Shown piece by piece: positions 1,502 to 10,280 of a stretch of 10,644 nt of DNA. Under the pieces are notes generated by a model. The model saw only the letters and a program-made list of their open reading frames with translations, did not search any database and had not been told where the DNA came from. Numbering within the stretch: the first letter of the stretch is position 1; every line of letters starts with the position of its first letter. Position numbers and translations under genes: made by a program. Origin of the DNA: Candidatus Pacearchaeota archaeon (GTDB lineage Archaea > Nanoarchaeota > Nanoarchaeia > Pacearchaeales > GW2011-AR1); assembly GCA_002690445.1 (NCBI GenBank), contig NZER01000141.1, positions 1 to 10,644 on the forward strand, written 5' to 3'.

Positions 1502-1695
1502 CCCATCCCGCCCCGTAGTGCCTTTATTCGTTTCGTGCATTTTGGGCACAGCCGAACATGGGTGGACTCGCTGTCAAACATTTTACCGTCGCATCCGGGG
1601 CCGAGACATTTGACTCGAAACTTTCTGTCGTGTCGGCGTTTGCCAACGCCCTCAAACAGATCAACGCTCTCACGTTCTTCTACCCGCTCAGACAT
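1498..1695 (-). CDS. Small zinc-ribbon protein
   Basis: A 65-residue basic protein with a Cys4 zinc-binding pattern C30-x4-C35-x14-C50-x2-C53 (CLGPGC ... RLCPKC). Small phage proteins of this kind are common and usually taken to bind nucleic acid or protein partners, but no specific role can be given. The start at 1695 is preferred over the longer frame to 1773: it has GGAG seven bases before ATG and overlaps the methyltransferase stop by eight bases, whereas the longer frame would lie deep inside the methyltransferase gene. It overlaps the downstream DUF6378-like gene as ATGA. Confidence 0.7.
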   Translation of the reverse strand: MSERVEERESVDLFEGVGKRRHDRKFRVKCLGPGCDGKMFDSESTHVRLCPKCTKRIKALRGGMG

Positions 1696-2251
1696 TAAAC
1701 TTCTCCACTTCATTACCCCACTGATCCCAACCCGGCCATTTCTGACGGCCGAACATCTCAAGGTAGGGTCCATCGACTAGCCGTTCGATTCGGGAATAAA
1801 TCTCGTCAGGCTTGCGCGAATGCTCGCGTCGCGGTGCTATAATTAGCTGTCGAACAGCTTTGGACTGCCGCTGCGGCTTACCACGTGTCCCCAACAAGCA
1901 CATCTCCGGGTTGGCGCGGGTCCAGTACCCGGTGCCGATCGGAAAGACGCCCGGTGTCTTGCCTGTCTTCGCCCACGTGAACGCCACGGCCTTGTACTTG
2001 AACCCTAGAAGACGGAACAGATCGAAAGCTTGGGGGAGAAGAGGATCGATTGCCCACAAGAAAAGCGCGCAGTCATCAGCGGCAGGGAGGCCCCCGACAA
2101 TGTTAAGGATGCTGGCGGGTCCGTGCGTATTGTACTTGGGGCTTCGCCCACGCCCCTTGGCGGACCATGTCTCGAACCGCCACGGGGGGTCCATCAGGAT
2201 AGCGCCGTAGGCTGGCCCTAGCTCTGCCATGCCTGTTTGTAATCGCTGCAC
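1688..2251 (-). CDS. MT-A70 family adenine-N6 DNA methyltransferase
   Basis: A 187-residue protein covering the MT-A70 domain. It has the catalytic DPPW motif at residues 21-24 (AILMDPPW), the FLWAIDPLLPQAFDLFRLLGFKY segment of the SAM-binding fold, WTRANPEMCLLGTRGKP, and a C-terminal HSRKPDEIY..IERLVDGPYLEMFGRQ..PGWD.WGNEV block typical of phage members. These enzymes use S-adenosylmethionine to methylate adenine, in phages probably to protect DNA from host restriction. There is no partner endonuclease gene nearby, so it is an orphan methyltransferase. Start choice: GTG at 2251 is preceded by AAGGGGG seven bases upstream, a better SD than that of the ATG at 2230; the two differ by seven residues outside the conserved domain. 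The gene overlaps the helicase end by 34 bases with the GTG start, or 13 with the ATG. Confidence 0.9.
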   Translation of the reverse strand: MQRLQTGMAELGPAYGAILMDPPWRFETWSAKGRGRSPKYNTHGPASILNIVGGLPAADDCALFLWAIDPLLPQAFDLFRLLGFKYKAVAFTWAKTGKTPGVFPIGTGYWTRANPEMCLLGTRGKPQRQSKAVRQLIIAPRREHSRKPDEIYSRIERLVDGPYLEMFGRQKWPGWDQWGNEVEKFNV

Positions 2252-4325: not shown

Positions 4326-4826
4326 CTAGATTGGTGATATCGCAACGTCCACCTGTTCATGCGCCCTCCACCGACTGGCGAATCTGTCTACATCAGACGT
4401 AACCTCGAAAACGTCAATGCTCAGTTTCGCCGCTTCGGCGTAGGTTTTGTAGCTACAGATTTCTATGATCTGCTTATCGTCAAGTATCGCCATGTTTTCG
4501 CCGCAAATCCCATCCAGAGCGGCTTTCACGACGTTATCCAGGTCAGGCTTGATGGCGTGGAACCCACCAGTCTCAAACAATTCCGCCCGTTTCTTCTTAC
4601 TGAGACTGCGTGGCGGCTCGAAAAACACCCCAACATGAACAATGCACGGCGTTTCCAGTGGCTTCCGCCCCGCCATGAGAATCATCGTGGCGTTGCGGAT
4701 GCGGCCCTCGTACTCGCGGGTTTTCTGTGGCGTATAGACATGCCCAGCCCGTGTGACGCGGGGCCTGCCTTTTGCAACAGGCACCCCCGGCACATCCAAA
4801 GAAAAGAACGGGGCGTTAGCCAACAC
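4326..4826 (-). CDS. rusA: RusA-family Holliday junction resolvase
   Basis: A 166-residue protein when started at GTG 4826. RusA-family features in order: FFSLDVPGVPVAKGRPRVTR (conserved KGRPR), YTPQKT..YE, a beta strand ending VFFEPP, KPDLDNVVKAALDG (93-106) with the catalytic KPDxDN aspartates, and ILDDKQI (115-120) with the third acidic site. RusA dimers cut Holliday junctions symmetrically; in phages they resolve recombination intermediates and branched DNA before packaging. The frame stays open to 4994, but those residues lie inside the upstream gene and do not resemble the family. GTG 4826 or TTG 4823 follow GGGAG at plausible spacing, and a GTG 4826 start overlaps the upstream stop by 11 bases. 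The exact start is uncertain by one codon. Confidence 0.92.
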   Translation of the reverse strand: MLANAPFFSLDVPGVPVAKGRPRVTRAGHVYTPQKTREYEGRIRNATMILMAGRKPLETPCIVHVGVFFEPPRSLSKKKRAELFETGGFHAIKPDLDNVVKAALDGICGENMAILDDKQIIEICSYKTYAEAAKLSIDVFEVTSDVDRFASRWRAHEQVDVAISPI

Positions 4827-5271
4827 GCTCTCCCGCCACGATCTTGTCGTGGCAATCGAGCCACCGCTGCACATCGGCCTCGCTGCCACCGACGGCAACC
4901 ACCGCCTTGATGATGGCCTGCGCTTGGATAGAACGCTCCCTGTTGGCCTGTGGGGCGTTAGCAACGCCCATTGGCGTGTTCTGTGGCCTACCACCCCCGT
5001 TTGACGCTACAGGCGCTGGTGGGGGCGGTACGGGGGCCTGAGAGCCATCACCGTTTGTGACTTCCTTGATGATGCCCTTGCCGACGCTCCGCTCCATCAC
5101 GCCCCTGTAATCCTTATCGTAGTACGGGATTTCGTAGCTTTTCCCGACTTCCACCTCACCGACGCGTTCGGCCCAGATTTTGATCTGCTGCCCGTCTTCG
5201 GTGTGCAGCATGTTAGGGCCACTCCCGCTTGAATAGTCGATCTTGCTGATCGTGATTTGCATGTTCGCCAT
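4816..5271 (-). CDS. Putative OB-fold single-stranded DNA-binding protein
   Basis: A 151-residue protein in three parts. An N-terminal beta-rich segment (1-72: QITISKIDYSS..GPNMLHTEDGQQIKIWAERVG.VEVGKSYEIPYYDKDYRG) has the look of a small OB-fold. A proline-rich, glycine-rich linker (~78-108, PVPPPPAPV) follows. A C-terminal helical segment (~112-148: RSIQAQAIIKAVVAVGGSEADVQRWL) ends the protein. I do not recognise a named family. The call as ssDNA-binding rests on the fold impression and on the position between a RecB-like nuclease and RusA, where phage SSB-like proteins often sit. It lacks the acidic C-terminal tip typical of bacterial SSB. The start at 5271 has GGAGGAG immediately upstream. 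The end overlaps the rusA start by 11 bases. Confidence 0.55.
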   Translation of the reverse strand: MANMQITISKIDYSSGSGPNMLHTEDGQQIKIWAERVGEVEVGKSYEIPYYDKDYRGVMERSVGKGIIKEVTNGDGSQAPVPPPPAPVASNGGGRPQNTPMGVANAPQANRERSIQAQAIIKAVVAVGGSEADVQRWLDCHDKIVAGERVG

Positions 5272-5309
5272 AATCTCCTCCGTTCTCCGGTTGGTGATAA
5301 GGGTGGGGA

Positions 5310-5333
5310 CGCGGCGGGGTTGGAAACGCCGCG
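5310..5333 (-). promoter_or_regulatory. Hairpin in the exonuclease/SSB-like intergenic gap
   Basis: In the 112-base gap 5272-5383, CGCGGCG (5310-5316) and CGCCGCG (5327-5333) form a perfect 7-bp GC stem with a 10-base loop. No U-tract follows in either direction, so it is not a standard intrinsic terminator. It could be an RNA-processing or mRNA-stabilising stem between the two genes. The rest of the gap holds only the SD of the downstream gene. Confidence 0.4.
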
Positions 5334-5383
5334 CCCCCGCGCAACAGCGAGAGGCTAAAACCGCCGTCGCGCAATTCTTTTCA

Positions 5384-6136
5384 TTAGAACACCTGTGGAC
5401 GTGGCTGGTATCTCGCCAGCATCAAAGCGGCCTCGAACGCGGCCAGATCGGTGGCGTAATGCTCATTGCCAAACGACACCGGGTCAATCTTGCCGGTGGC
5501 CCTTGAAAACCTGACCAGAGTGCAGCCGTCGATCTTTTCTCCTGCCTCTTCGAGCATCGAGCGGTAGGCACACAACTGTCCGACGTGACCATGCTTGAGA
5601 CTGGCCTTGAGATCGGTCGCGCCCTTCCAATCGATGACGTGAATCTGCCCGTTCCGCAAACGTGTGACCATATCCACGGTCCCGGCGATGTTCCACTTCA
5701 GCGAGTACAGGCGACGTTCCGTATGTAGAACCTCCGCAACGTGCTGTTTAAACCACTCCCCAAGGCTTTTCTGACACTTCGCCACGTCCTCATCCTCTGA
5801 AAGATCGGGGTCCAAGCCGTGCGCGGTGCTTTCTATGTATCGATGCACCTCAATTCCGATTGCCGCCGCTCTTTGCGACTGGCGGTTTGGTTCGCCGCAA
5901 ATGTCCTTGGCCCATGCCAGCTTTGACTCGTCGCCGTCGAATGATGTCGGGATGTCGGACGCCACCAGATGCTCGCGTACCATCTTGGCCGCCCATCCTG
6001 ACGCCACTCCGAAATTCACCGGATAGCCACCAGAAACTGCGCTCACCGTCAGCGGAACCTTCTCGCCGTTCCATTCGTAGCGGTGGCGGCCGTCCTCGTA
6101 CGTCAGTGTGCCGCCCATCGTGTTAATAATTTCCAT
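5384..6136 (-). CDS. PD-(D/E)XK nuclease, RecB/Cas4-like phage exonuclease
   Basis: A 250-residue protein with the ordered motifs of the RecB-type PD-(D/E)XK superfamily: GIEVHRYIE with H98, an acidic residue E140 before RRLYSLKWNIAGTVDMV (D155), VIDWKG (D169-x-K171), and Q187LCAY191. These bind metal and cleave DNA, usually as an exonuclease. In a phage recombination module, next to an SSB-like protein and a resolvase, it probably resects ends or degrades host DNA. No annealing protein (Erf, Bet or Sak type) is recognisable beside it; the OB-fold-like neighbour could take part in that role, but this is inference. The start at 6136 has GGGAG seven bases upstream. A second in-frame ATG seven codons later is less well placed. 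The stop overlaps a TAATG that opens only a nine-codon ORF. Confidence 0.88.
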   Translation of the reverse strand: MEIINTMGGTLTYEDGRHRYEWNGEKVPLTVSAVSGGYPVNFGVASGWAAKMVREHLVASDIPTSFDGDESKLAWAKDICGEPNRQSQRAAAIGIEVHRYIESTAHGLDPDLSEDEDVAKCQKSLGEWFKQHVAEVLHTERRLYSLKWNIAGTVDMVTRLRNGQIHVIDWKGATDLKASLKHGHVGQLCAYRSMLEEAGEKIDGCTLVRFSRATGKIDPVSFGNEHYATDLAAFEAALMLARYQPRPQVF

Positions 6137-6181
6137 CTAGTGTCTCCCTCTTAATCTGACGCAGTAGATGTCGGAGTCGTT

Positions 6182-6562
6182 TCAACGTCTTGCTGCCGCT
6201 TCTTCTTCGGCCAGTTCGGTTGCCATCTGCTGAAGCAGTGGCACATCTTCTGCGGGTCCAGCGTAATAGTCTTCTGGCCAGCGTTTCACTGCCTTGACGA
6301 TGGCGTTCCACATATCGCTGGTCAGGTGTTCCGCCAAATTGCATTCATAGAACCGGCTGCGACCGGTCGGCGGATAGTTCATGCAGACCTGCCCCGGATC
6401 GTCCAAATCATCCAGATCTACGCGGTATGTGACGGTGGTGGCGTGGCGGCGTCCGTTCTCTTTACGGCTGTCCCACAAGTCGCTGCGTTCCGTCACGAAG
6501 CACAGCGTCACTGGAATGTCGGCAAGGTAAACCGGTGCGGTTTCTTCCGGGATGTTAGACAT
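6182..6562 (-). CDS. Hypothetical protein, 126 aa
   Basis: Not recognised. The start is placed at ATG 6562 (MSNIPEE) because GGAGG lies seven bases upstream; the frame extends two codons further only through a TTG. The middle is beta-like (VYLADIPVTLCFVTERSDLWDS ... HATTVTYRVDLDDLDDPGQVC) and the C-terminal third is helical (LTSDMWNAIVKAVKRWPEDYY), ending in an alanine/glutamate-rich tail (ATELAEEEAAARR). There is no transmembrane segment or zinc motif. It lies directly upstream of the nuclease, separated by 45 bases, so it may belong functionally to the recombination module. The SD of this gene sits in the loop of a small hairpin (6564-6585). Confidence 0.65.
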   Translation of the reverse strand: MSNIPEETAPVYLADIPVTLCFVTERSDLWDSRKENGRRHATTVTYRVDLDDLDDPGQVCMNYPPTGRSRFYECNLAEHLTSDMWNAIVKAVKRWPEDYYAGPAEDVPLLQQMATELAEEEAAARR

Positions 6563-6563
6563 T

Positions 6564-6585
6564 CTCAAACCTCCAAGTTTTTGAG
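6564..6585 (-). promoter_or_regulatory. Hairpin presenting the SD of the 6562 gene in its loop
   Basis: CTCAAA (6564-6569) and TTTGAG (6580-6585) form a 6-bp stem. The 10-base loop holds GGAGG, the ribosome binding site of the gene starting at 6562, and the stem ends one base before the ATG. Such a stem could present or limit ribosome access. It is short and AT-containing, so its effect is uncertain. Confidence 0.35.
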
Positions 6586-6608
6586 TCGTTGATGTTTGGG
6601 CGTGGGGA

Positions 6609-6848
6609 TTATTCCCCGCCGCCCCGCTGGGTAGTTTCTCTAATTTCTATCGCGTTTGGATAATCAACCTCCGCGTCAGCGATTGAGTCATACGCTGCCT
6701 CGTGGCGTATGAATCCATCTCCATTGCAGAAATCGCAGACGCGAACAGCGTAAACGTCGTGCGCGGTTCGATGCTCAGTTTGGCCGAGTCCGGCGCAGTC
6801 CGCGCAGGGTAGATCAATCTGGAAACGGCTGTCCTCATAGGTCAGCAT
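6609..6848 (-). CDS. Small protein with two DnaJ-type CxxCxGxG zinc motifs
   Basis: A 79-residue protein (ATG 6848; GTG 6857 is an alternative). CADCAGLG (15-22) and CDFCNGDG (38-45) are two copies of CxxCxGxG, the repeat of the DnaJ cysteine-rich zinc domain, and together give one Cys4 site. There is no J-domain, so it is not a complete DnaJ chaperone. Small stand-alone versions occur in phages and may bind nucleic acid or act as protein adaptors. The start overlaps the end of the upstream gene by 14 bases. AGGTG stands six bases before the ATG and overlaps the GTG, favouring the ATG. The C-terminal part is acidic and ends in a GGGE tail. Confidence 0.7.
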   Translation of the reverse strand: MLTYEDSRFQIDLPCADCAGLGQTEHRTAHDVYAVRVCDFCNGDGFIRHEAAYDSIADAEVDYPNAIEIRETTQRGGGE

Positions 6849-7194
6849 GGAGTACACCTATGAATTTCTCTGGAACTTGCGATCCCTCAAGTCTGCCTCG
6901 TCGCCATATCATGTATTCCGCGCAGAGATTTATTGCCTGCCGCGCAGGGGCCGTCCAATGGTTGTTGCGGAACATTCCCCGCCGCTCAAGGGCAGCAAGG
7001 AAGTCCCTCGCCAAGTCAAGCGCCTCCTCTGTTTGTTCAATCTCTTCGGGTGTCCGGCTCTCCCACTCCAATGTCTGCCGCTGGTAGATCTCGTCAATTT
7101 CGTCGGCAAACTCCTCGACAGTCATTTCAGAGTCGTCCACGTTTTGCTGCGCGGCGGGAAATTGAATCACATCTTTGTCGTCTGATTCGCCCAT
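6835..7194 (-). CDS. Hypothetical acidic helical protein, 119 aa
   Basis: Not recognised. The start is set at ATG 7194, one base after the TGA of the upstream gene (TGAGATG) and with GGGGA five bases before it; the frame runs open to 7320 but those residues lie inside the upstream gene. The N-terminal half is very acidic (ESDDKDV ... VDDSEMTVEEFADEIDEIY). Then come two predicted helices (EEIEQTEEALDLARDFLAALERRGMF and TAPARQAINLCAEYMIWRRG). Its order resembles the upstream 133-aa protein (acidic N-terminus, helical C-terminus), but I cannot show homology by eye. It is part of a string of small accessory genes in the promoter-proximal half of the operon. Confidence 0.65.
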   Translation of the reverse strand: MGESDDKDVIQFPAAQQNVDDSEMTVEEFADEIDEIYQRQTLEWESRTPEEIEQTEEALDLARDFLAALERRGMFRNNHWTAPARQAINLCAEYMIWRRGRLEGSQVPEKFIGVLHADL

Positions 7195-7195
7195 C

Positions 7196-7597
7196 TCAGT
7201 CCCCAATTCGATCATATTCCCGCTCGTCGATTTCCTGCGCTGCGCTGTAGCAGCGACTGATTGCCTCGCGCAGACGTTTGGCGGCGTGTTCCGCATCCAC
7301 CGAAACGGTATGGAATCCAATCAGGCAATATTCCCCCAGAGTGGGGAGCGGTTCGTCCTGCTCAAGTTCTGTCTCCCGGCGCGTTGAGAGCGTGTAAACG
7401 CGCTCCAGCGTCTTGGCTAGCGCCTCTAGCTGGGCGATGGGCGAGAGCAAATCGAAATCATCCTCGCCTATCTCATATTCACGATTATCGACAGGATTAT
7501 TAGAACTATCCACCATGTCGCTGGTTCCATTGTTTGATTCCTCCTCTTCAAAATGAATTGCGCCGGTACGCGGATTCATAAATGGCTCTCGGGTCAT
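7196..7597 (-). CDS. Hypothetical acidic helical protein, 133 aa
   Basis: Not recognised. The start at 7597 has GGAGG within a GAGGCTAA leader seven bases upstream. The first ~50 residues are acidic and probably disordered (HFEEEESNNGTSDMVDSSNNP ... GEDDFD). The rest is helical (SPIAQLEALAKTLERVYTL, DAEHAAKRLREAISRCYSAAQEIDERE). There are no cysteine clusters or membrane segments. It follows the 34-aa membrane protein, whose stop codon overlaps the SD of this gene (TGAGGAGG), so translation is probably coupled. It is the last gene with the GAGGCTAA leader. Confidence 0.65.
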   Translation of the reverse strand: MTREPFMNPRTGAIHFEEEESNNGTSDMVDSSNNPVDNREYEIGEDDFDLLSPIAQLEALAKTLERVYTLSTRRETELEQDEPLPTLGEYCLIGFHTVSVDAEHAAKRLREAISRCYSAAQEIDEREYDRIGD

Positions 7598-7609
7598 TTT
7601 TTAGCCTCC

Positions 7610-7714
7610 TCAGATTGTCAAAATCAGAGTCACCGTCAGCGCGACGACGAACGCCGTCCACGTCACAGCGACCACGAAATACGCCGTAATAACCGCCCTA
7701 GCGAGCGGGTTCAT
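7610..7714 (-). CDS. Tiny single-pass membrane protein, 34 aa
   Basis: A 34-residue ORF read directly from the sequence: MNPLARAVITAYFVVAVTWT followed by AFVVALTVTLILTI. Almost the whole protein after residue 7 is hydrophobic, enough for one transmembrane helix, with one arginine near the N-terminus. Its ATG overlaps the TGA of the 58-aa gene as ATGA, and its own TGA runs into the SD of the next gene, so it is locked between two genes by coupling. This packing makes chance unlikely. Function unknown; such peptides in early phage regions can act on host membrane proteins, but nothing here shows that. Confidence 0.6.
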   Translation of the reverse strand: MNPLARAVITAYFVVAVTWTAFVVALTVTLILTI

Positions 7715-7887
7715 GGCAACGCAACCCAAACAAATGCCAGGACGACCACGAACAGGACGAATCCCACGGCGTCTGCGACAACGCTGGCGCGATTCCGCTG
7801 TGTGGTGCGCTGACCGCCTGACATTGTCACAGACAATAGGCGCTGGAGTCTGGTCGCGTCCGCTGGGTTGATTCGTTGTTTTTTCAT
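7711..7887 (-). CDS. Small membrane protein with C-terminal anchor, 58 aa
   Basis: A 58-residue ORF with ATG 7887 and stop 7711. It has a basic, polar N-terminus (MKKQRINPADATRLQRLLSV ... GGQRTTQRNRASVV) followed by a hydrophobic segment at ~39-57 (DAVGFVLFVVVLAFVWVAL) ending in a proline. This predicts a tail-anchored protein with its basic part in the cytoplasm. The start carries the conserved leader GAGGCTAA six bases before ATG and lies downstream of one of the three repeated junction hairpins, which supports it as a real gene. It overlaps the 34-aa membrane gene by four bases. A holin-like role is possible in principle, but the early-region position argues against lysis. Confidence 0.65.
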   Translation of the reverse strand: MKKQRINPADATRLQRLLSVTMSGGQRTTQRNRASVVADAVGFVLFVVVLAFVWVALP

Positions 7888-7965
7888 CGTCTTAGCCTCT
7901 CTCTGGTTGATGGAGTCGCCACCAATACGTGGCGCTGTTTAAACGCCACGCATGAGGAGCGATTC
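7888..7965 (-). repeat. Junction element C: hairpin plus GAGGCTAA leader
   Basis: The 78 bases between two small genes contain, on the - strand, GAATCGCTCCTC after the TAG stop, then a hairpin (arms 7944-7953 and 7925-7934, a 10-bp stem with one G.U, 9-base loop), then the flank ATTGGTGGC, and finally GAGGCTAA (7892-7899) before the ATG. It shares flanks and order with the elements at 8308-8388 and 8797-8881, while the stem sequence is its own. No U-tract follows, so it is not a simple terminator. Confidence 0.75.
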
Positions 7966-8307
7966 CTAGTCCATCCAACCGTCGTTATATGTCGCTTCGA
8001 TTCCGTTCTTCGCGAGATATTCGAGCGCGGGTTTTACGCTACGCTGCGCGGATATATTCCCCTGAACCGGCGGACTCGAAATCACGTTGCGCGGTTCTGC
8101 GGATCTTTTACGCGGGGCGCGAATCCATATCTCGATTCCCTTACCGCCGCAGCACGAACCCTCATCAGTCGCGCCCTGCAATTCCCATTCGGAATCCCAT
8201 AGCCGCTTGGCCTCACGTAGAATCGGGCGGATTCTGTCAATATCCGCCTGCTCGTACGCCTCGACGGCTTCAGGATTGGACGGGTAAAACTTAGGTACTC
8301 TCTTCAT
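7966..8307 (-). CDS. Hypothetical protein, 113 aa
   Basis: Not recognised. The start at 8307 carries the GAGGCTAA leader. The protein has a helical N-terminal half (NPEAVEAYEQADIDRIRPILREAKRLWDSEWEL), a GSCCGGKGIEIWIRAPRKR segment with adjacent cysteines and basic residues, and a C-terminal AQRSVKPALEYLAKNGIEATYNDGWMD. The ending resembles a small alpha/beta domain. Unlike its neighbours it is not strongly acidic. It is flanked on both sides by the repeated junction hairpin elements and ends with TAG, as do the two genes before it. Confidence 0.65.
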   Translation of the reverse strand: MKRVPKFYPSNPEAVEAYEQADIDRIRPILREAKRLWDSEWELQGATDEGSCCGGKGIEIWIRAPRKRSAEPRNVISSPPVQGNISAQRSVKPALEYLAKNGIEATYNDGWMD

Positions 8308-8388
8308 AATTTAGCCTCTTTCTCTAGTCCGGCAGAATTGCCACCAATGGGGACAGCCAGCCAGGCCATCCCCATGAGAAGCGATTGC
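8308..8388 (-). repeat. Junction element B: hairpin plus GAGGCTAA leader
   Basis: The 81-base junction reads, on the - strand, GCAATCGCTTCTC after the TAG stop, then a hairpin (ATGGGGA at 8369-8375 and TCCCCAT at 8347-8353, 15-base loop), directly followed by TGGTGGC, a small second stem (GGCA ATTC TGCC), and GAGGCTAA (8311-8318) before ATG. The flank ATCGCTYCTCATG and the sequence ATTGGTGGC are shared with element C. Confidence 0.75.
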
Positions 8389-8796
8389 CTACGCTGCGGC
8401 TTCGTAGATTTCCCAGTACTGCGCGGTCTCTTCCAAGGCGTACCAGGCCAGCGCGTTAAGAATGGCGGTGTCTGCGCCGTCGTTTCGCGTGGCGTCGTCT
8501 ATATCGTCATGGATCACGGACGCGATTTCGAATGCGGGGAACTCTCCGTGTAGACAATTAAATCCCGCGATCATTTCCAGCGGATCAATTCCGAACTCCG
8601 CGGCTTGGTTTTTGGCGTGGCGGTAAATTTCCGCCATATTGTCGCGTGCAAACTTACACGTCATTTCGCTGTGATAAATGAATCCGCTGAATCCGTCATC
8701 CGCTCCGTTATTCCGAATATTTGACATGGTGGAGTCAATCTCGTCGTCTTCGCAGTTTAACTGCGCGATAACTGAGTCAATGAGTCGTTGTTCCAT
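8389..8796 (-). CDS. Hypothetical very acidic protein, 135 aa (DUF7222-like?)
   Basis: The start at 8796 has GAGGCTAA before it. The protein carries about 27 acidic against 7 basic residues. The sequence GADDGFSGFIYHSEMTCKFARDNMAEIYRHAKNQAAEFGIDPLEMIAGFNCLHG, followed by ILNALAWYALEETAQYWEIYE, recalls a phage family with the pattern GG..GFIYY.DT..F...N...I...........D...MI..FN ... L.W.A.EE.A, which I believe is DUF7222; the name is uncertain and the function unknown. No catalytic motif is visible. The strong negative charge would fit a protein that binds basic partners or mimics DNA, but that is only a possibility. Confidence 0.7.
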   Translation of the reverse strand: MEQRLIDSVIAQLNCEDDEIDSTMSNIRNNGADDGFSGFIYHSEMTCKFARDNMAEIYRHAKNQAAEFGIDPLEMIAGFNCLHGEFPAFEIASVIHDDIDDATRNDGADTAILNALAWYALEETAQYWEIYEAAA

Positions 8797-8881
8797 GATT
8801 TAGCCTCTTTGGTTTGGTTTCGCGTTATCGGTCTAGTAGACCGTCAATGGGCTGAGACGAATCCCAGCCCATGAAGAGTCC
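8797..8881 (-). repeat. Junction element A: two hairpins plus GAGGCTAA leader
   Basis: The 85-base junction reads, on the - strand, GGACTCTTC after the TAG stop, then a hairpin (ATGGGCTG at 8865-8872 and CAGCCCAT at 8847-8854, 10-base loop), then TGA and a perfect second inverted repeat (CGGTCTA C TAGACCG, 8829-8843), then a spacer and GAGGCTAA (8800-8807) before ATG. It matches elements B and C in position, length and CTYTTCATG/CATTG flanks, but the downstream flank is less conserved. Confidence 0.75.
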
Positions 8882-9178
8882 CTAGTGACAGTTAATGAAT
8901 TTCAATGCTTGGTCGCGAGTAGCGAACGCAACCAGGGTCACGAATCCTTGCGAGTCTTCCCAAATCACCACAGTGTCCCCGATTTTGACTTCGTCGGGGA
9001 ACGCGTCGGCCTCGTCGGCGTCTACAGTAAACAGTGTGTAAATAATTCCATCCCAGACTGGCGAATGATCTTCGCCATCGCCATCCATGACGCATTGCCA
9101 GTACCAATTCGCTAGGCCAGTCTCGCCCTCGAATTTTCCGAACCCGTTCTCGACGGTCGCAAAGTCTTGGAGTTCCAT
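8882..9178 (-). CDS. Hypothetical very acidic protein, 98 aa; first gene of the - strand operon
   Basis: Not recognised. About 20 acidic and 4 basic residues, rich in aromatics (NWYWQCVMDGDGEDHSPVWDGIIYTLF), then TVDADEADAFPDEVKIGDTVVIWEDSQGFVTLVAFATRDQALKF. The second half looks like a small beta-barrel (KIGDTVVIWEDSQGFVTLVAF). The start at 9178 has a GAGGCTA leader. It is the gene nearest the divergent promoter, so it would be transcribed first after infection. A nearly full-length basic ORF overlaps it in another frame with its own copy of the leader (ATG 9191); the acidic frame is preferred because its ordinary composition and the neighbour pattern fit real coding. Confidence 0.65.
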   Translation of the reverse strand: MELQDFATVENGFGKFEGETGLANWYWQCVMDGDGEDHSPVWDGIIYTLFTVDADEADAFPDEVKIGDTVVIWEDSQGFVTLVAFATRDQALKFINCH

Positions 9179-9202
9179 AATGTAGCCTCATTGATTAGCC
9201 TC
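9177..9202 (-). repeat. Tandemly duplicated translation leader (2 x 13 bp)
   Basis: On the - strand GAGGCTAATCAAT (9202-9190) is directly followed by GAGGCTACATTAT (9189-9177) and then G, so each copy ends in an ATG. The two copies match at 9 of 13 positions. The second drives the gene at 9178; the first would start an overlapping frame at 9191. It is the same leader as at 8800-8807, 8311-8318, 7892-7899 and 7601-7608. Confidence 0.75.
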
Positions 9203-9213
9203 GAATATGGCGG

Positions 9214-9242
9214 ACCCTAAATCATGATTAATGTGGCGTCAA
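9214..9242 (-). promoter_or_regulatory. Candidate sigma70-type promoter of the - strand operon
   Basis: TTGACG (9242-9237) is a good -35 box. A 17-base spacer leads to TAGGGT (9219-9214), a poor -10 (three of six). The position before the first gene and the absence of another candidate support it. The spacer contains the palindrome at 9218-9231, so a bound protein there would block this promoter. A weak -10 may mean activation is required. Confidence 0.45.
9218..9231. promoter_or_regulatory. Candidate operator palindrome
   Basis: TAAATCATGATTAA is a 14-bp imperfect palindrome with a perfect 10-bp core (AATCATGATT, 9220-9229), lying between the -35 and -10 boxes of the - strand promoter. It is a plausible binding site for a dimeric repressor or for the small HTH protein encoded at 9604. 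Only one copy was noticed, so it is not a typical multi-site phage operator array. Confidence 0.35.
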
Positions 9243-9256
9243 GCATATAAAATGAG

Positions 9257-9285
9257 TTGACCAGGCGCGGGGTGTCGTTTAATGT
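9257..9285 (+). promoter_or_regulatory. Candidate sigma70-type promoter of the + strand rep region
   Basis: TTGACC (9257-9262), a 17-base spacer and TAATGT (9280-9285) form a possible promoter for the + strand genes. Its -35 box lies 14 bases from the -35 of the divergent promoter, back to back (inverted GTCAA/TTGAC). The -10 match is weak. A start near 9292 would give a leader of about 28 nt holding AGGAGAG. Confidence 0.45.
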
Positions 9286-9319
9286 GCGCAGACGTTATCG
9301 ATTCAGCAGGAGAGACCGG

Positions 9320-9541
9320 ATGAGCGAACAAGAATTTTGTCAATGGTTTACAGCTCTTGACCTTGGCCGTTTAGAGCCAATTCGCGGTTATGTTGAGGCC
9401 TTCGCGCTTGAGAACGGTGCCCACGCCCGCAGGGATGAGCATGCCGACGAATACGCCATCGCCAAAATCACCGTTGAAATGTATTTAGATGATGGCGACT
9501 TAGCCGATTCATCCTTTACCGGGATTGCTGGATATAGATAA
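9320..9541 (+). CDS. Hypothetical small acidic protein, 73 aa
   Basis: Not recognised. The start at 9320 (MSEQEFCQWF) is chosen because AGGAGAG precedes it at good spacing; the frame is open back to 9257, but the extra part is an arginine-rich stretch overlapping the promoter. The protein is helical and acidic (about 15 acidic and 6 basic residues): LGRLEPIRGYVEAFALENG, RDEHADEYAIAKITVEMYLDDGDLADSSF. There are no metal, HTH or membrane features. It is the first gene rightward of the divergent promoter, the position of a regulator or early host-interaction gene, and is followed by a strong terminator. Confidence 0.65.
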   Translation: MSEQEFCQWFTALDLGRLEPIRGYVEAFALENGAHARRDEHADEYAIAKITVEMYLDDGDLADSSFTGIAGYR

Positions 9542-9563
9542 CCGAGAATCGATACTGAACCTG

Positions 9564-9590
9564 GGGGGGGCTGCGGCCTCCTCTTTTTTT
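9564..9590 (+). terminator. Intrinsic terminator directly before the HTH/rep genes
   Basis: GGGGGGGC (9564-9571) pairs with GCCTCCTC (9576-9583) around a TGCG tetraloop: 8 pairs, two of them G.U, followed by seven Ts (9584-9590). This is a textbook intrinsic terminator for + strand transcripts. The SD of the next gene (GGAGAGG, 9591-9597) begins at the next base, leaving no room for a new promoter. The HTH and rep genes must therefore be reached by readthrough, so it probably acts as an attenuator or antitermination point. Confidence 0.8.
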
Positions 9591-9603
9591 GGAGAGGAAC
9601 ACC

Positions 9604-9804
9604 ATGCAACGCGAGATTGAGGATTTAGTCGAGGAACTGGATTCGTTTCTGTGGAAGCACGGGTTGAGCGACACAAAATTCGGAATCCTCAGCGTCGGTG
9701 ATGGTCATTTAATGCGACGGATTCGGGACGGCCGACCCATAAGACGCTCAACGGTTTTGAAAATCAGGAAATGGATTCAGCGTTTTGAGCTGGATTCGGC
9801 ATGA
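9604..9804 (+). CDS. Small helix-turn-helix regulator (Cro/XRE-like)
   Basis: A 66-residue basic protein. A first helix (IEDLVEELDSFLWKHGLS) is followed by DTKFGILSVGDGHLMRRIRDGRPIRRSTVLKIRKWI. The pattern GLS.TKFG..AVGD..L.R.IR.GR.....T...I..F is that of small single-domain HTH proteins known to me from Alphaproteobacteria and their phages, in which KFG..SVGD..LMRRI forms the recognition region. The likely role is transcriptional control of the divergent promoters, Cro- or CII-like by position. The start at 9604 has GGAGAGG six bases upstream; the ATG at 9589 would lie inside the terminator/SD. The stop overlaps the next ATG (ATGA), so it is coupled to the replication gene. Confidence 0.75.
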   Translation: MQREIEDLVEELDSFLWKHGLSDTKFGILSVGDGHLMRRIRDGRPIRRSTVLKIRKWIQRFELDSA

Positions 9805-10280
9805 CGTGGCGTTTGATTCGCCCGATCTGGCGACTCGCGGATGTTACCGCTAACCAGCGTCTCGTATTGCTGGCGCTTGCTTCGTTCACTGATAATCGCG
9901 GCGCTAACGCATATCCCAGTCAGGGAACATTGGCGCGCATGTGTTGCTGTACGACTCGAACGATTCGCCGCGCTTTATCGGAGTTGATTGCCAAGCGAAT
10001 AATCGTGCCGAACGGGAAGGCTAGGCGCGGAACGATACGCTACAGCGTCAACGTCAATGTCCTGCCTAGTGCGGACTCTACAGTCCTACCCAAGCGGACA
10101 CCCGCGTCCTACAATCCTAGTAAAAGAAAACCTGGTAATAGGAATCCTGGTAACCTGGAAGAGTCTAAGACTCTAAGAGGGCAATATTTTGATTTTGATT
10201 CAGATTCAGACACCAGCATACGCGAAACAATTCACGACCAGGCGATGCGATTAGACCGCGAACGACGGCGACAAACCTAG
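9801..10280 (+). CDS. Winged-helix replication initiator-like protein with internal iterons
   Basis: A 159-residue protein. Residues ~17-85 form a helix-turn-helix domain of the HTH_36 type (TANQRLVLLALASFTDNRGANAYPS.GTLARMCCCTTRTIRRALSELIAKRIIVPNG....TIRYSVN), as in the N-terminal domains of phage replication proteins such as lambda O-like initiators. A linker (~88-125) follows, with three five-residue repeats NPSKR/KPGNR/NPGNL, then an acidic FDFDSDSD stretch and a basic tail (AMRLDRERRRQT). The DNA of the linker carries 15-bp tandem repeats next to an AT-rich stretch, the layout of an origin within an initiator gene. The start is set by the ATGA overlap with the HTH gene. The C-terminal half is too short for a helicase-loader domain; a plain transcription regulator remains possible. 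Confidence 0.75.
   Translation: MTWRLIRPIWRLADVTANQRLVLLALASFTDNRGANAYPSQGTLARMCCCTTRTIRRALSELIAKRIIVPNGKARRGTIRYSVNVNVLPSADSTVLPKRTPASYNPSKRKPGNRNPGNLEESKTLRGQYFDFDSDSDTSIRETIHDQAMRLDRERRRQT
10113..10210. repeat. Iteron-like 15-bp repeats with AT-rich flank: candidate origin
   Basis: Three contiguous 15-bp units, 10113-10127, 10128-10142 and 10143-10157, share the core AANCCTRGTAA. They are followed by an inverted repeat GAGTCT A AGACTC (10161-10173) and an AT-rich, repeated stretch at about 10183-10206 (ATTTTGATTTTGATTCAGAT). In lambdoid phages the O protein binds iterons that lie inside its own gene between its two domains, beside an AT-rich unwinding region; the layout here is the same. 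Proline and glycine codons are invariant (CCT, GGT) in the repeats, which suggests DNA-level constraint. The number of repeats is small, so the call is a candidate. Confidence 0.5.

Follow-up and report, generated by a model that had tools for sequence, protein, structure and literature searches.

Candidate RNA devices at both ends of small viral genes: a covarying hairpin at UAG stop codons and a loop RNA matching the start leader

Virus genomes constantly gain and lose small genes, and how the newcomers come under control is an open question. Integron attC sites join a variable stem to a conserved base and conserved core boxes in a gene-plus-element order, and REP elements have a linked Y1 transposase. 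The mobile regulatory cassettes of T4-type phages, which Arbiol is said to have described in 2010, are small intergenic cassettes with early promoters and a stem-loop that reportedly mediate phage gene shuffling. The early RNase III sites of T7 (R0.3 to R1.3) lie between early genes, each an irregular hairpin with a start signal just downstream. Using what we take to be the names and positions of these sites, we picked five stretches of the T7 early sequence as a yardstick. Three of them folded into a single irregular helix, of 18, 25 and 18 pairs, and in one of the three, at the 0.4/0.5 junction, the stop codon came to lie in the lower stem; the other two gave only 9-10 pairs. R1.1 is described with a 4/5-nt asymmetric internal loop (PMC6121014). 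For cluster K mycobacteriophages, the sections of PMC3203893 on these repeats give little support for ESAS hairpins and tie ESAS to the family of the downstream gene. According to the relevant parts of the respective papers, attC acts through its bottom strand (PMC6393395), HK022 has two put RNAs, similar in sequence, one downstream of each early promoter (PMC9378689), and AbcR1 is an anti-Shine-Dalgarno small RNA complementary to translation start regions (PMC6234868). The sections of the phage small-RNA review PMC12197685 covered here describe nothing like a leader-matching loop.

The window, meaning the whole stretch of 10,644 nucleotides analysed, carries three junction elements on its minus strand. 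Element U3 (8794..8885, from CTAG to ATG) is of subtype beta, with the stop codon TAG at 8882-8884, the H1 core at 8847-8872 and H2 at 8829-8843. U2 (8305..8392) and U1 (7885..7969) are of subtype alpha, with TAG at 8389-8391 and 7966-7968 and H1 cores at 8347-8375 and 7925-7953, respectively; H2 of U2 lies at 8331-8342, and U1 has an H2-like helix at about 7908-7924. The original prediction had given the coordinates and stems of the three hairpins correctly, and each unit folds better than 200 of 200 dinucleotide shuffles (z -4.2, -3.1 and -3.7). The flank of the third unit, which had been called weaker, does differ from the others, but it represents a second subtype, whose flank is itself conserved across 11 aligned copies. 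The flank ATCGCTYCTCATG is within chance in the window alone (two occurrences with at most two mismatches; 30 of 200 shuffles reach two) and is established through the relatives only. On the minus strand, gene A (8882..9178, 98 aa), without a Pfam or PHROGs match, is followed by the beta element here and in L008 (L numbers denote the loci compared). The DUF7222-like gene F2 (8389..8796, 135 aa; E 4.8e-5, 24 bits, under the Pfam cut-off of 27) is followed by an alpha element in the window, L007, L008 and L009, as is gene C (7966..8307, 113 aa) in the window, and gene D (7711..7887, 58 aa) lies downstream of U1.

The stems vary from copy to copy yet stay complementary. In the H1 core, 187 of 189 positions were paired (27 elements, which give 21 different arm pairs), against a mean of 107 and a maximum of 136 in 2000 random re-pairings of the 3' arms. 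Formal covariation counts found seven pairs changed on both sides for alpha (0 of 500 shuffles) and four for beta (2 of 500), in shuffle tests that do not remove relatedness; in the beta count, the H2 alignment is wrong for W3 and L008a. Re-pairing within a single subtype was a weaker test, the observed value being reached 5 (alpha H1), 8 (beta H1) and 10 (H2) times in 2000. We left out as duplicates L049, L051, L157 and L158 (the same as L050), L154 (L052), L159 (L038), L161 and L162 (L160) and L164 (L163). L036b, which is the L038b element, was left out of the G·U/A·C count, the re-pairing tests and the folding analyses, L043c and L043d are absent from the group test, L008a was omitted from the H2 re-pairing test, and the bulged A of L028b was omitted from its H1 arm. 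Over the whole helix of 27 elements, 55 G·U stood against 15 A·C, and in the distinct H1 cores 17 G·U against one A·C (counted from the arm-pair table), indicating that the coding strand folds, as expected for RNA rather than double-stranded DNA. Selection on RNA or DNA structure had been proposed; the covariation counts bear out the structure, and the excess of G·U favours RNA over double-stranded DNA. A double-stranded DNA operator was rejected, since the arm sequences are unlike among copies within one genome (L043). Judged by these counts, the stop codon of the upstream gene is marked by a conserved structured RNA, the junction hairpin, which comes in two subtypes.

That stop codon is nearly always UAG. 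Where the element is present, F1 genes end in UAG at 10 of 10 loci and F2 genes at 3 of 3 loci, in addition to the window; where it is absent, UAG ends 1 of 11 F1 and 4 of 75 F2 loci. Many of the loci in this count are the same virus, and L188, with 301 bases, was excluded from it. Stop-codon read-through was considered and rejected, as the frames past the UAG in several copies differ in length and residues by eye. The element and its subtype go together with the upstream gene, and what varies is the gene that comes next: F2 with its element is followed by four different genes in four viruses and F1 with its element by two kinds of gene, and F7 likewise keeps the element. The predicted seam-like behaviour, with different genes coming after the same gene and element, is thus observed. 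The single junction unit once drawn from hairpin and leader separates into its parts, both of which are present: the hairpin belongs to the upstream gene, and the leader is separate, occurring also without a hairpin and differing between virus groups. On sequence comparison, then, the element makes up the 3' part of the gene before it, and the start leader does not belong to it.

Further copies of the element occur in relatives and also in a single contig that shares no gene family, and L043 holds seven copies. Searches of viral contigs returned 15 loci for pattern 1 and 19 for pattern 2, of which we kept L007/L024, L008, L009, L028, L036, L038 and L043 and judged the remainder coding or chance by eye. 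R1 gave at least 67 bits for 15 rows in related viruses (some being the same virus) and at most 20.7 bits in 79 of the GTDB loci that match the alpha flank (see below), where R2 had no match up to E 1. The main R2 search gave 22.0 bits inside the terminase gene of L045, so that 19.7 bits in L043 and 23.3 bits in L002 resemble background. The 18-base alpha flank had 97 matches in GTDB contigs of bacterial genomes; ranked by stem score, the top match shows a clean 11-bp stem, and the best 25 include no element. With blastn, no relatives among cultured phages were found for window 6000-10000, one alpha element, one L043 element or the L160 copy of the two hairpins SL1 and SL2 treated below. Rfam 15 gave no match at family threshold in the window, L002, L007, L009, L028, L038, L043, L160 or L163, and three weak matches in all, each at most about a third of the family threshold. 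Mesorhizobium phage Cp1R7A-A1 and Erythrobacter phage XM05, reached through coding matches, have intergenic hairpins of another sort and were set aside.

We then considered how the elements would fold. The predicted free fold is one nested helix running from the 5' flank to the 3' flank over the stop region in 27 of 31 copies, and in 23 of the 27 the pairing includes a base of the stop codon; L050b reaches the nested helix by another route, and L043a, L043c, L043e and L002b do not form it. When the stop region (12 nt) was masked, the two-hairpin form with H2 was predicted in 30 of 31, L160a being the copy without H2. By a stricter counter, the helix has 18-25 pairs in 17 of 31 elements (10 of 13 alpha, 7 of 18 beta-type). 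Over the 31 elements, the 5' flank contributed -5.88 kcal/mol versus -3.44 for shuffled flanks (minimum -4.74), and H2 contributed -7.18 versus -4.16 when shuffled (minimum -5.02), with 200 shuffles. Like the T7 sites, the elements are intercistronic, lying after stop codons between leftward small genes that we infer to be early. They differ in that the asymmetric internal loop of the R1.1 type is absent and single 1x1 mismatches stand at conserved places of the helix, in the alternative hairpin H2, in belonging to unrelated viruses, and in being known from sequence and folding. The RNase III domain PF14622 was found in none of the seven contigs, so that a host enzyme would be needed. The folds are compatible with a role of the junction hairpin in mRNA processing or 3' protection, a reading to which we give slightly less than half of our confidence.

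The leader GAGGCTAA occurs six times in the window, where 0.24 copies are expected and 0 of 200 shuffles reach six. Five of the six are minus-strand gene leaders, located at 9195..9202 before the first gene, 8800..8807 before the DUF7222-like gene, 8311..8318 before the 113-aa gene, 7892..7899 before the 58-aa gene and 7601..7608 before a 133-aa gene with no hairpin element ahead. A second leader, GAGGCTA(C), at 9183..9189 precedes the ATG of the 98-aa gene. The leader predicted to stand alone at 7601-7608 does read GAGGCTAA, and of the two copies predicted within 9177-9202 one is GAGGCTAA (9195-9202) and the other reads GAGGCTA-C (9183-9189); the five minus-strand copies had been listed and the sixth, on the plus strand at 5351-5358, overlooked. 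Read on the minus strand, this sixth copy is the loop of another hairpin, SL1, and it is the most important one for understanding the leader. The leader is the extended Shine-Dalgarno sequence of many genes, including ones without a hairpin such as that behind 7601-7608, and its sequence varies by virus group. GAGGCAC is the commonest leader in L009 and L028, which also hold three leaders of other types (one GAGGCTG, two GAGGCTA). The seven loci have 38 leaders ahead of frames of at least 40 codons; 37 of these precede SL1 on its own strand and one, in L160, lies downstream.

The predicted likeness to SAS/ESAS holds as a concept, as both comprise a repeated start-associated leader and an upstream inverted repeat between non-structural genes. 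Hairpin support and gene linkage are both opposite, however: as presented in those sections of PMC3203893, the ESAS repeats are unsupported as hairpins and go with the gene after them, whereas here the stems show compensating changes and go with the gene before them. The sequences are unrelated as well, with a 13-bp GGGATAGGAGCCC at the start there and GAGGCTAA or GAGGCAC here.

SL1 (5339..5372, minus strand) has a 12-bp stem and a 10-nt loop, UUUUAGCCUC, at 5351-5360, and the leader is reverse-complementary to the last 8 loop nucleotides. It is followed by a second strong hairpin, SL2 (5305..5338, minus strand), and the two lie between the minus-strand genes F0 (5384..6136), a phage exonuclease (PHROG 298, E 5.5e-26), and F3 (4816..5271), for which neither Pfam nor PHROGs gave a match below E 0.02 and follow-up naming searches gave no family. 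The predicted open loop of the first hairpin thus displays the exact leader reverse complement 3' of the exonuclease gene. This most telling feature falls outside the coordinates of the original prediction. The loop reads UUAGCCUC in the window/L002, L007, L160 and L163, and GUGCCUC in L009 and L028, whose commonest leader is GAGGCAC. The computed loop-leader duplex was taken for 24 CTA and 24 CAC leaders: that of the CTA loops was -14.7 to -15.3 on the former and -10.1 to -11.6 on the latter, and that of the CAC loops was -17.6 on CAC leaders and -13.4 on CTA leaders; at 113 other start sites the loop duplex was -8.9 to -11.5. In L043, junction hairpins are present and no leader-matching loop was found within 9.7 kb of sequence. 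The SL1 loop shows what is expected of a trans-acting small RNA, a conserved or co-varying seed, predicted to be open, that can pair with the start regions of its targets. It differs from AbcR1-type RNAs in that one loop fits an extended leader peculiar to the virus, which many of that virus's own genes carry, and varies together with this leader. Taken together, the leader match suggests RNA-based control of a gene set. From the computed duplexes, we consider it somewhat probable that the SL1 loop and the leaders pair inside the cell; whether such pairing would repress is nearly balanced, with repression falling a little short.

Alternatively, SL1 and SL2 could be a mere terminator region of the exonuclease operon, the loop-leader match then being the Shine-Dalgarno core plus chance, which we consider rather unlikely. 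The SL2 counterparts of L007, L163, L009 and L028 do have a T run behind them that looks terminator-like by eye, which is weak in L160 and absent in the window, so that no free RNA end is evident there, and when hairpin loops were sought that are complementary to any leader with at least three uses, 31 of the 40 rows lay elsewhere (nine were SL1; L009 was missed). Against this, the 8-nt match sits in the loop at one and the same place in four virus groups despite their different stems, and the loop differs along with the leader in L009 and L028.

For the junction hairpins, three other functions were weighed against processing or protection. A ribosome-sensing translational switch, coupling or uncoupling the next gene, would suit two mutually exclusive folds of which one involves the stop-codon region, and a coordinating effect on translation had been predicted. 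Masking the stop region raised the predicted Shine-Dalgarno accessibility from 0.49 to 0.64 over 31 elements, a gain of 0.157 versus 0.192 with shuffled flanks (40 shuffles); release of the Shine-Dalgarno by a stop-codon switch was therefore rejected, folding lends the predicted effect on the next gene no support, and we regard the switch as improbable. Equally improbable to us are recombination sites at which folded DNA would move small genes as cassettes, as attC does. The constancy of the preceding gene with its element (F2, F1, F7) beside a changing follower, and a fusion in L036 at the 3' base of a beta stem, speak for such sites; a variable stem, a conserved base and the gene-plus-element order are shared with attC. 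However, no tyrosine recombinase (PF00589) was found in any of the seven contigs, all possibly fragments, and it is the coding strand that folds here, whereas attC, in the part of PMC6393395 concerned, uses the bottom strand. The Y1 transposase PF01797 was likewise found in none of the seven contigs, which may be fragments. The T4-type cassettes share the small intergenic shuffling format and differ in their promoters, the window junctions being without a promoter-like site; a simple scan of 7400-9400 found neither intrinsic terminators nor sigma-70 promoters at U1-U3. Antiterminators acting on RNA polymerase, like the HK022 put RNA, seem very improbable: two adjacent stem-loops are predicted with the flank masked, promoter-proximal in the operon, but L043 has seven copies, and the stem sequences are free to differ and are unlike, where the HK022 pair is similar.

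The reading that we prefer, and hold to be about evenly balanced with its negation, is that a family of uncultured viruses of bacteria carries two separate RNA devices, the junction hairpin and the leader with its loop RNA; the same balance covers, jointly, the leader as a putative target of a phage antisense RNA. Both devices would act on one leftward transcript, which probably starts between about 9,200 and 9,260, as placed by eye. The hairpin would be a double-stranded processing site of the T7 early-gene type, beside which RNase III or a like nuclease would cut, leaving the hairpin to protect the upstream message and releasing the following one, start signal included. With a ribosome sitting on the UAG, the long helix would be prevented in favour of the two hairpins, and cutting may therefore depend on translation. 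The loop RNA would pair with the leaders and block ribosomes on the accessory genes; because SL1 lies downstream of these genes, it would be made only after transcription has passed them, giving a delayed shut-off.

The junction hairpins represent a structured-RNA family with strong covariation that is unmatched by Rfam 15. More speculatively, and doubtful as it stands, the accessory genes may be RNA-tagged at both ends, by a virus-specific 'barcode' leader read by one antisense RNA as a delayed off-timer and by a bistable hairpin that senses the ribosome on the UAG, with tagged genes being gained, lost and reshuffled under common control. If this is true, one RNA that reads a common leader and changes along with it, together with a 3' hairpin that can be carried from place to place, would offer a simple and general answer to how newcomer genes are brought under control.

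The window is an IMG/VR virus record of 10,644 bases, linear and possibly a fragment. Small unknown genes open its leftward series, followed by an exonuclease (PHROG 298), by F3, the family downstream of the hairpins SL1 and SL2, and then by a protein of Toprim/DnaB type and an MT-A70 methylase (1688-2251, minus strand). A small protein at 6609-6857 (minus strand) weakly matched Q-like antitermination proteins (PHROG 6060, E 4e-5). The three junction elements were as the original prediction had described them. Relatives at several distances were identified by protein and pattern searches of viral contigs, and the element was also present in L002, L007, L008, L009, L028, L036, L038, L050, L052, L153, L160, L163 and L043. 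The last carries seven copies within 3.6 kb and, with gene families assigned by a simple script, has no family in common with the other element-bearing loci. Except for a T7 yardstick, every virus sequence in these counts is an uncultured contig, and several contigs are duplicates. Two subtypes, alpha (approximately UAG-GGAAUCGCUYCU-H1-AUUGGYGGCAAUYCUGCC, H1 being the core hairpin) and beta (approximately UAGCGACUCUGG-H1-..ACGGCUGCUA..AGUCG), were both found within the window and within L043. In Mesorhizobium phage Cp1R7A-A1 and Erythrobacter phage XM05 (L045, L047), small genes are separated by large gaps that contain strong hairpins together with conserved stretches that recur, a different style of junction cassette.

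Changing yet paired stems had been taken as a sign of selection on structure, and the aligned arms indeed compensate. In alpha, 94.4% of cells were paired over 20 pairs, seven of which had changed on both sides, a number reached by none of 500 shuffles, although these and the other shuffle statistics preserve neither phylogeny nor sampling; sliding the alignment lowered pairing to 37-54%. In beta, 96.1% were paired, with both-side changes in four pairs (equalled by 2 of 500 shuffles). Across all classes, 187 of 189 H1 core positions paired (21 distinct arm pairs from 27 elements), compared with a mean of 107 and a maximum of 136 in 2000 random re-pairings; when re-pairing was confined to one subtype, the observed value was reached by 5/2000 (alpha) and 8/2000 (beta). 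The strongest covariation came from L043, where seven copies in one genome have different stems and 70/70 positions pair (0/2000). G·U outnumbered A·C both in whole helices (55 versus 15, most A·C apparently being one conserved C·A position of alpha) and in distinct H1 cores (17 versus 1), indicating that the coding strand is the folding strand.

Structure models built from alpha (R1) and beta (R2) recovered the known copies, and R1 added new ones in L153 and L160. R1 gave 25.0 bits for L043 and 22.2 for L002 (best background 20.7), and R2 gave 23.3 for L002 and 19.7 for L043, with a terminase-gene match at 22.0 and nothing in 79 bacterial loci. In whole contigs of 22-34 kb, one place each was detected in L007 and L160 (R1) and L163 (R2). 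Each model detected one of the seven copies on the L043 contig; the evidence linking this weakly detected locus is its retrieval by pattern searches and the reading of its junctions.

The element can adopt two folds. By script, the free lowest-energy fold of 27 of the 31 elements contained one nested helix that encloses H1 and joins the two flanks, 5′ with 3′; L050b, one of the 27, reached it through another arrangement (by eye), and a stop-codon base was paired in 23 of the 27. Once the first 12 nt were masked, mimicking a terminating ribosome, a separate second hairpin (H2) formed in 30/31. The mean energies of flank pairing and of H2 each lay beyond all 200 shuffles, and matched flanks paired at -9.03 versus -7.49 when exchanged (29 pairs; best of 300 exchanges, -8.88). 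In 9 of 11 beta copies, the H2 loop region (GCUA; GUUA in L050a) can base-pair with UAGC and the base that follows it, and the remaining two have four bases (the window's third element) and three bases (L008a) toward it. By eye, the first five L043 elements (L043:4699-6755) showed an additional, third hairpin after H2 and ahead of the start signal, e.g. GCAAGCTG/CAGCTTGC, for which some of H2 may be an alternative pairing partner.

Among the genes compared, the subtype was constant for each upstream gene, without conflict, in small hand-made counts from related viruses. Alpha followed F2, a DUF7222-like family (window, L007, L008, L009), F13 (L038, L036, L052) and a gene starting MSHFYA (L028, L153); beta followed F1 (L009, L050, L038, L052, L153, L163, with a truncated copy in L036), gene A (window, L008) and F10 (L009, L050). 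By downstream gene the subtypes conflicted, F7 being preceded by beta (L009, L050, L153) or alpha (L008), and F2 by beta or nothing. No element followed F1 in L007, in L160 or in relatives further away, and none followed F7 in L009, L050 and L153; the largest element-free set was the F2 family (75 loci). UAG ended F1 in 10/10 and F2 in 3/3 loci with the element, versus 1/11 and 4/75 without it, so that, judged from these sequences, the element includes the stop codon. In L050c the gene ends with UAA just before the element, which keeps CUGG at that position. At L036:1084-1145 (minus strand) a beta hairpin continues straight into the F13 reading frame, without H2, leader or start; this is either a deletion or a chimeric assembly, broken where the stem ends at its 3′ base. 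The F2 protein ends in YWEIYEAAA in the window and L008 and in SFDN in L007 and L009, and the stem type changes accordingly; the gene tail and its element may thus move together.

The best fit for the hairpin is a predicted intercistronic processing or 3′-end hairpin. Action on the next Shine-Dalgarno sequence was considered as well and received no support from a folding test. For comparison, we folded five T7 stretches at presumed positions of the early RNase III sites. A single irregular helix formed in three of them (18, 25 and 18 pairs, enclosing 5, 13 and 9 unpaired bases); in the 0.4/0.5 stretch its lower stem includes the stop codon. The other two gave 9 and 10 pairs. The mismatches of the junction element are unlike those of the T7 sites, and we therefore describe it as working like, not as being, such a site. 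RNase III is reported to cut the early T7 message of ~7,000 nt at five sites (PMC4858673), and R1.1, 60 nt long, to have a 4/5-nt internal loop (PMC6121014). Searches of seven contigs, each possibly a fragment, detected no domain of a tyrosine integrase, an RNase III or a Y1 transposase in any of them.

The leader GAGGCTAA was more frequent in the window than expected by chance and stood before genes with and without the hairpin. It varied by virus group, being GAGGCTA in the window, L002, L007, L160 and L163 and predominantly GAGGCAC in L009, L028, L038, L050 and L153. Opposite-strand genes carried a GAGGCTAATCA leader before ATG (L163:4014, 5631, 5870; L008:6930, 7214), so the leader set extends beyond the leftward operon. 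At 9183-9202 (minus strand), tandem leaders precede the first gene, the first leading into an out-of-frame ATG (99-codon frame), and similar doublets occur in L008 and L163. A near-consensus promoter, TTGACG then TATGAT, lies immediately ahead of F1 and its leader, the first one, at ~5937-5990 in L163, with a similar one in L008 (by eye), which suggests that one promoter serves the leftward operon.

The sixth GAGGCTAA of the window lies on the plus strand, which pointed to the leader explanation. On the coding strand, the interval between the exonuclease and F3 carries two strong hairpins, SL1 and SL2, and 8 nt in the open loop of SL1, UUUUAGCCUC, match the reverse complement of the leader exactly. 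L007, L160 and L163 are arranged likewise, with stems different yet complementary and UUAGCCUC constant. L009 and L028 have GUUGGUGCCUCUUU as the loop at this position, complementary to their own AAAGAGGCAC leaders. Five folds were tested, with z from -2.8 to -5.6. The calculated loop-leader duplexes were specific in both directions (leaders picked mechanically; one only for L163). When 259 sequences (4.38 Mb, both strands) were scanned for hairpins whose loop complements a leader that is used at least three times, 40 rows resulted, of which 9 were SL1 (window, L028; L007, L160 and L163 including contig copies) and 31 others; the SL1 of L009 was missed. By eye, L007, L009 and L028 share a conserved stretch with TTATATTCATGCC ~60-75 bases before SL1, which could be the promoter of an antisense RNA.

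Neither device, junction hairpin or leader-matching loop, was found in Rfam, in cultured phages by blastn of selected window, element and SL1/SL2 stretches, or in the open-licence papers searched. Both are related to known kinds, namely early processing hairpins and antisense RNAs; new to us are the two devices occurring together, a single loop that covaries with many leaders, and a stop-codon region that folds in two states. In seven loci, 37 of 38 leaders were on the strand of SL1 and upstream of it, with the exception in L160 (the sequence available 3′ of SL1 is short in L009). This order suggests that SL1 would exert a delayed negative feedback.
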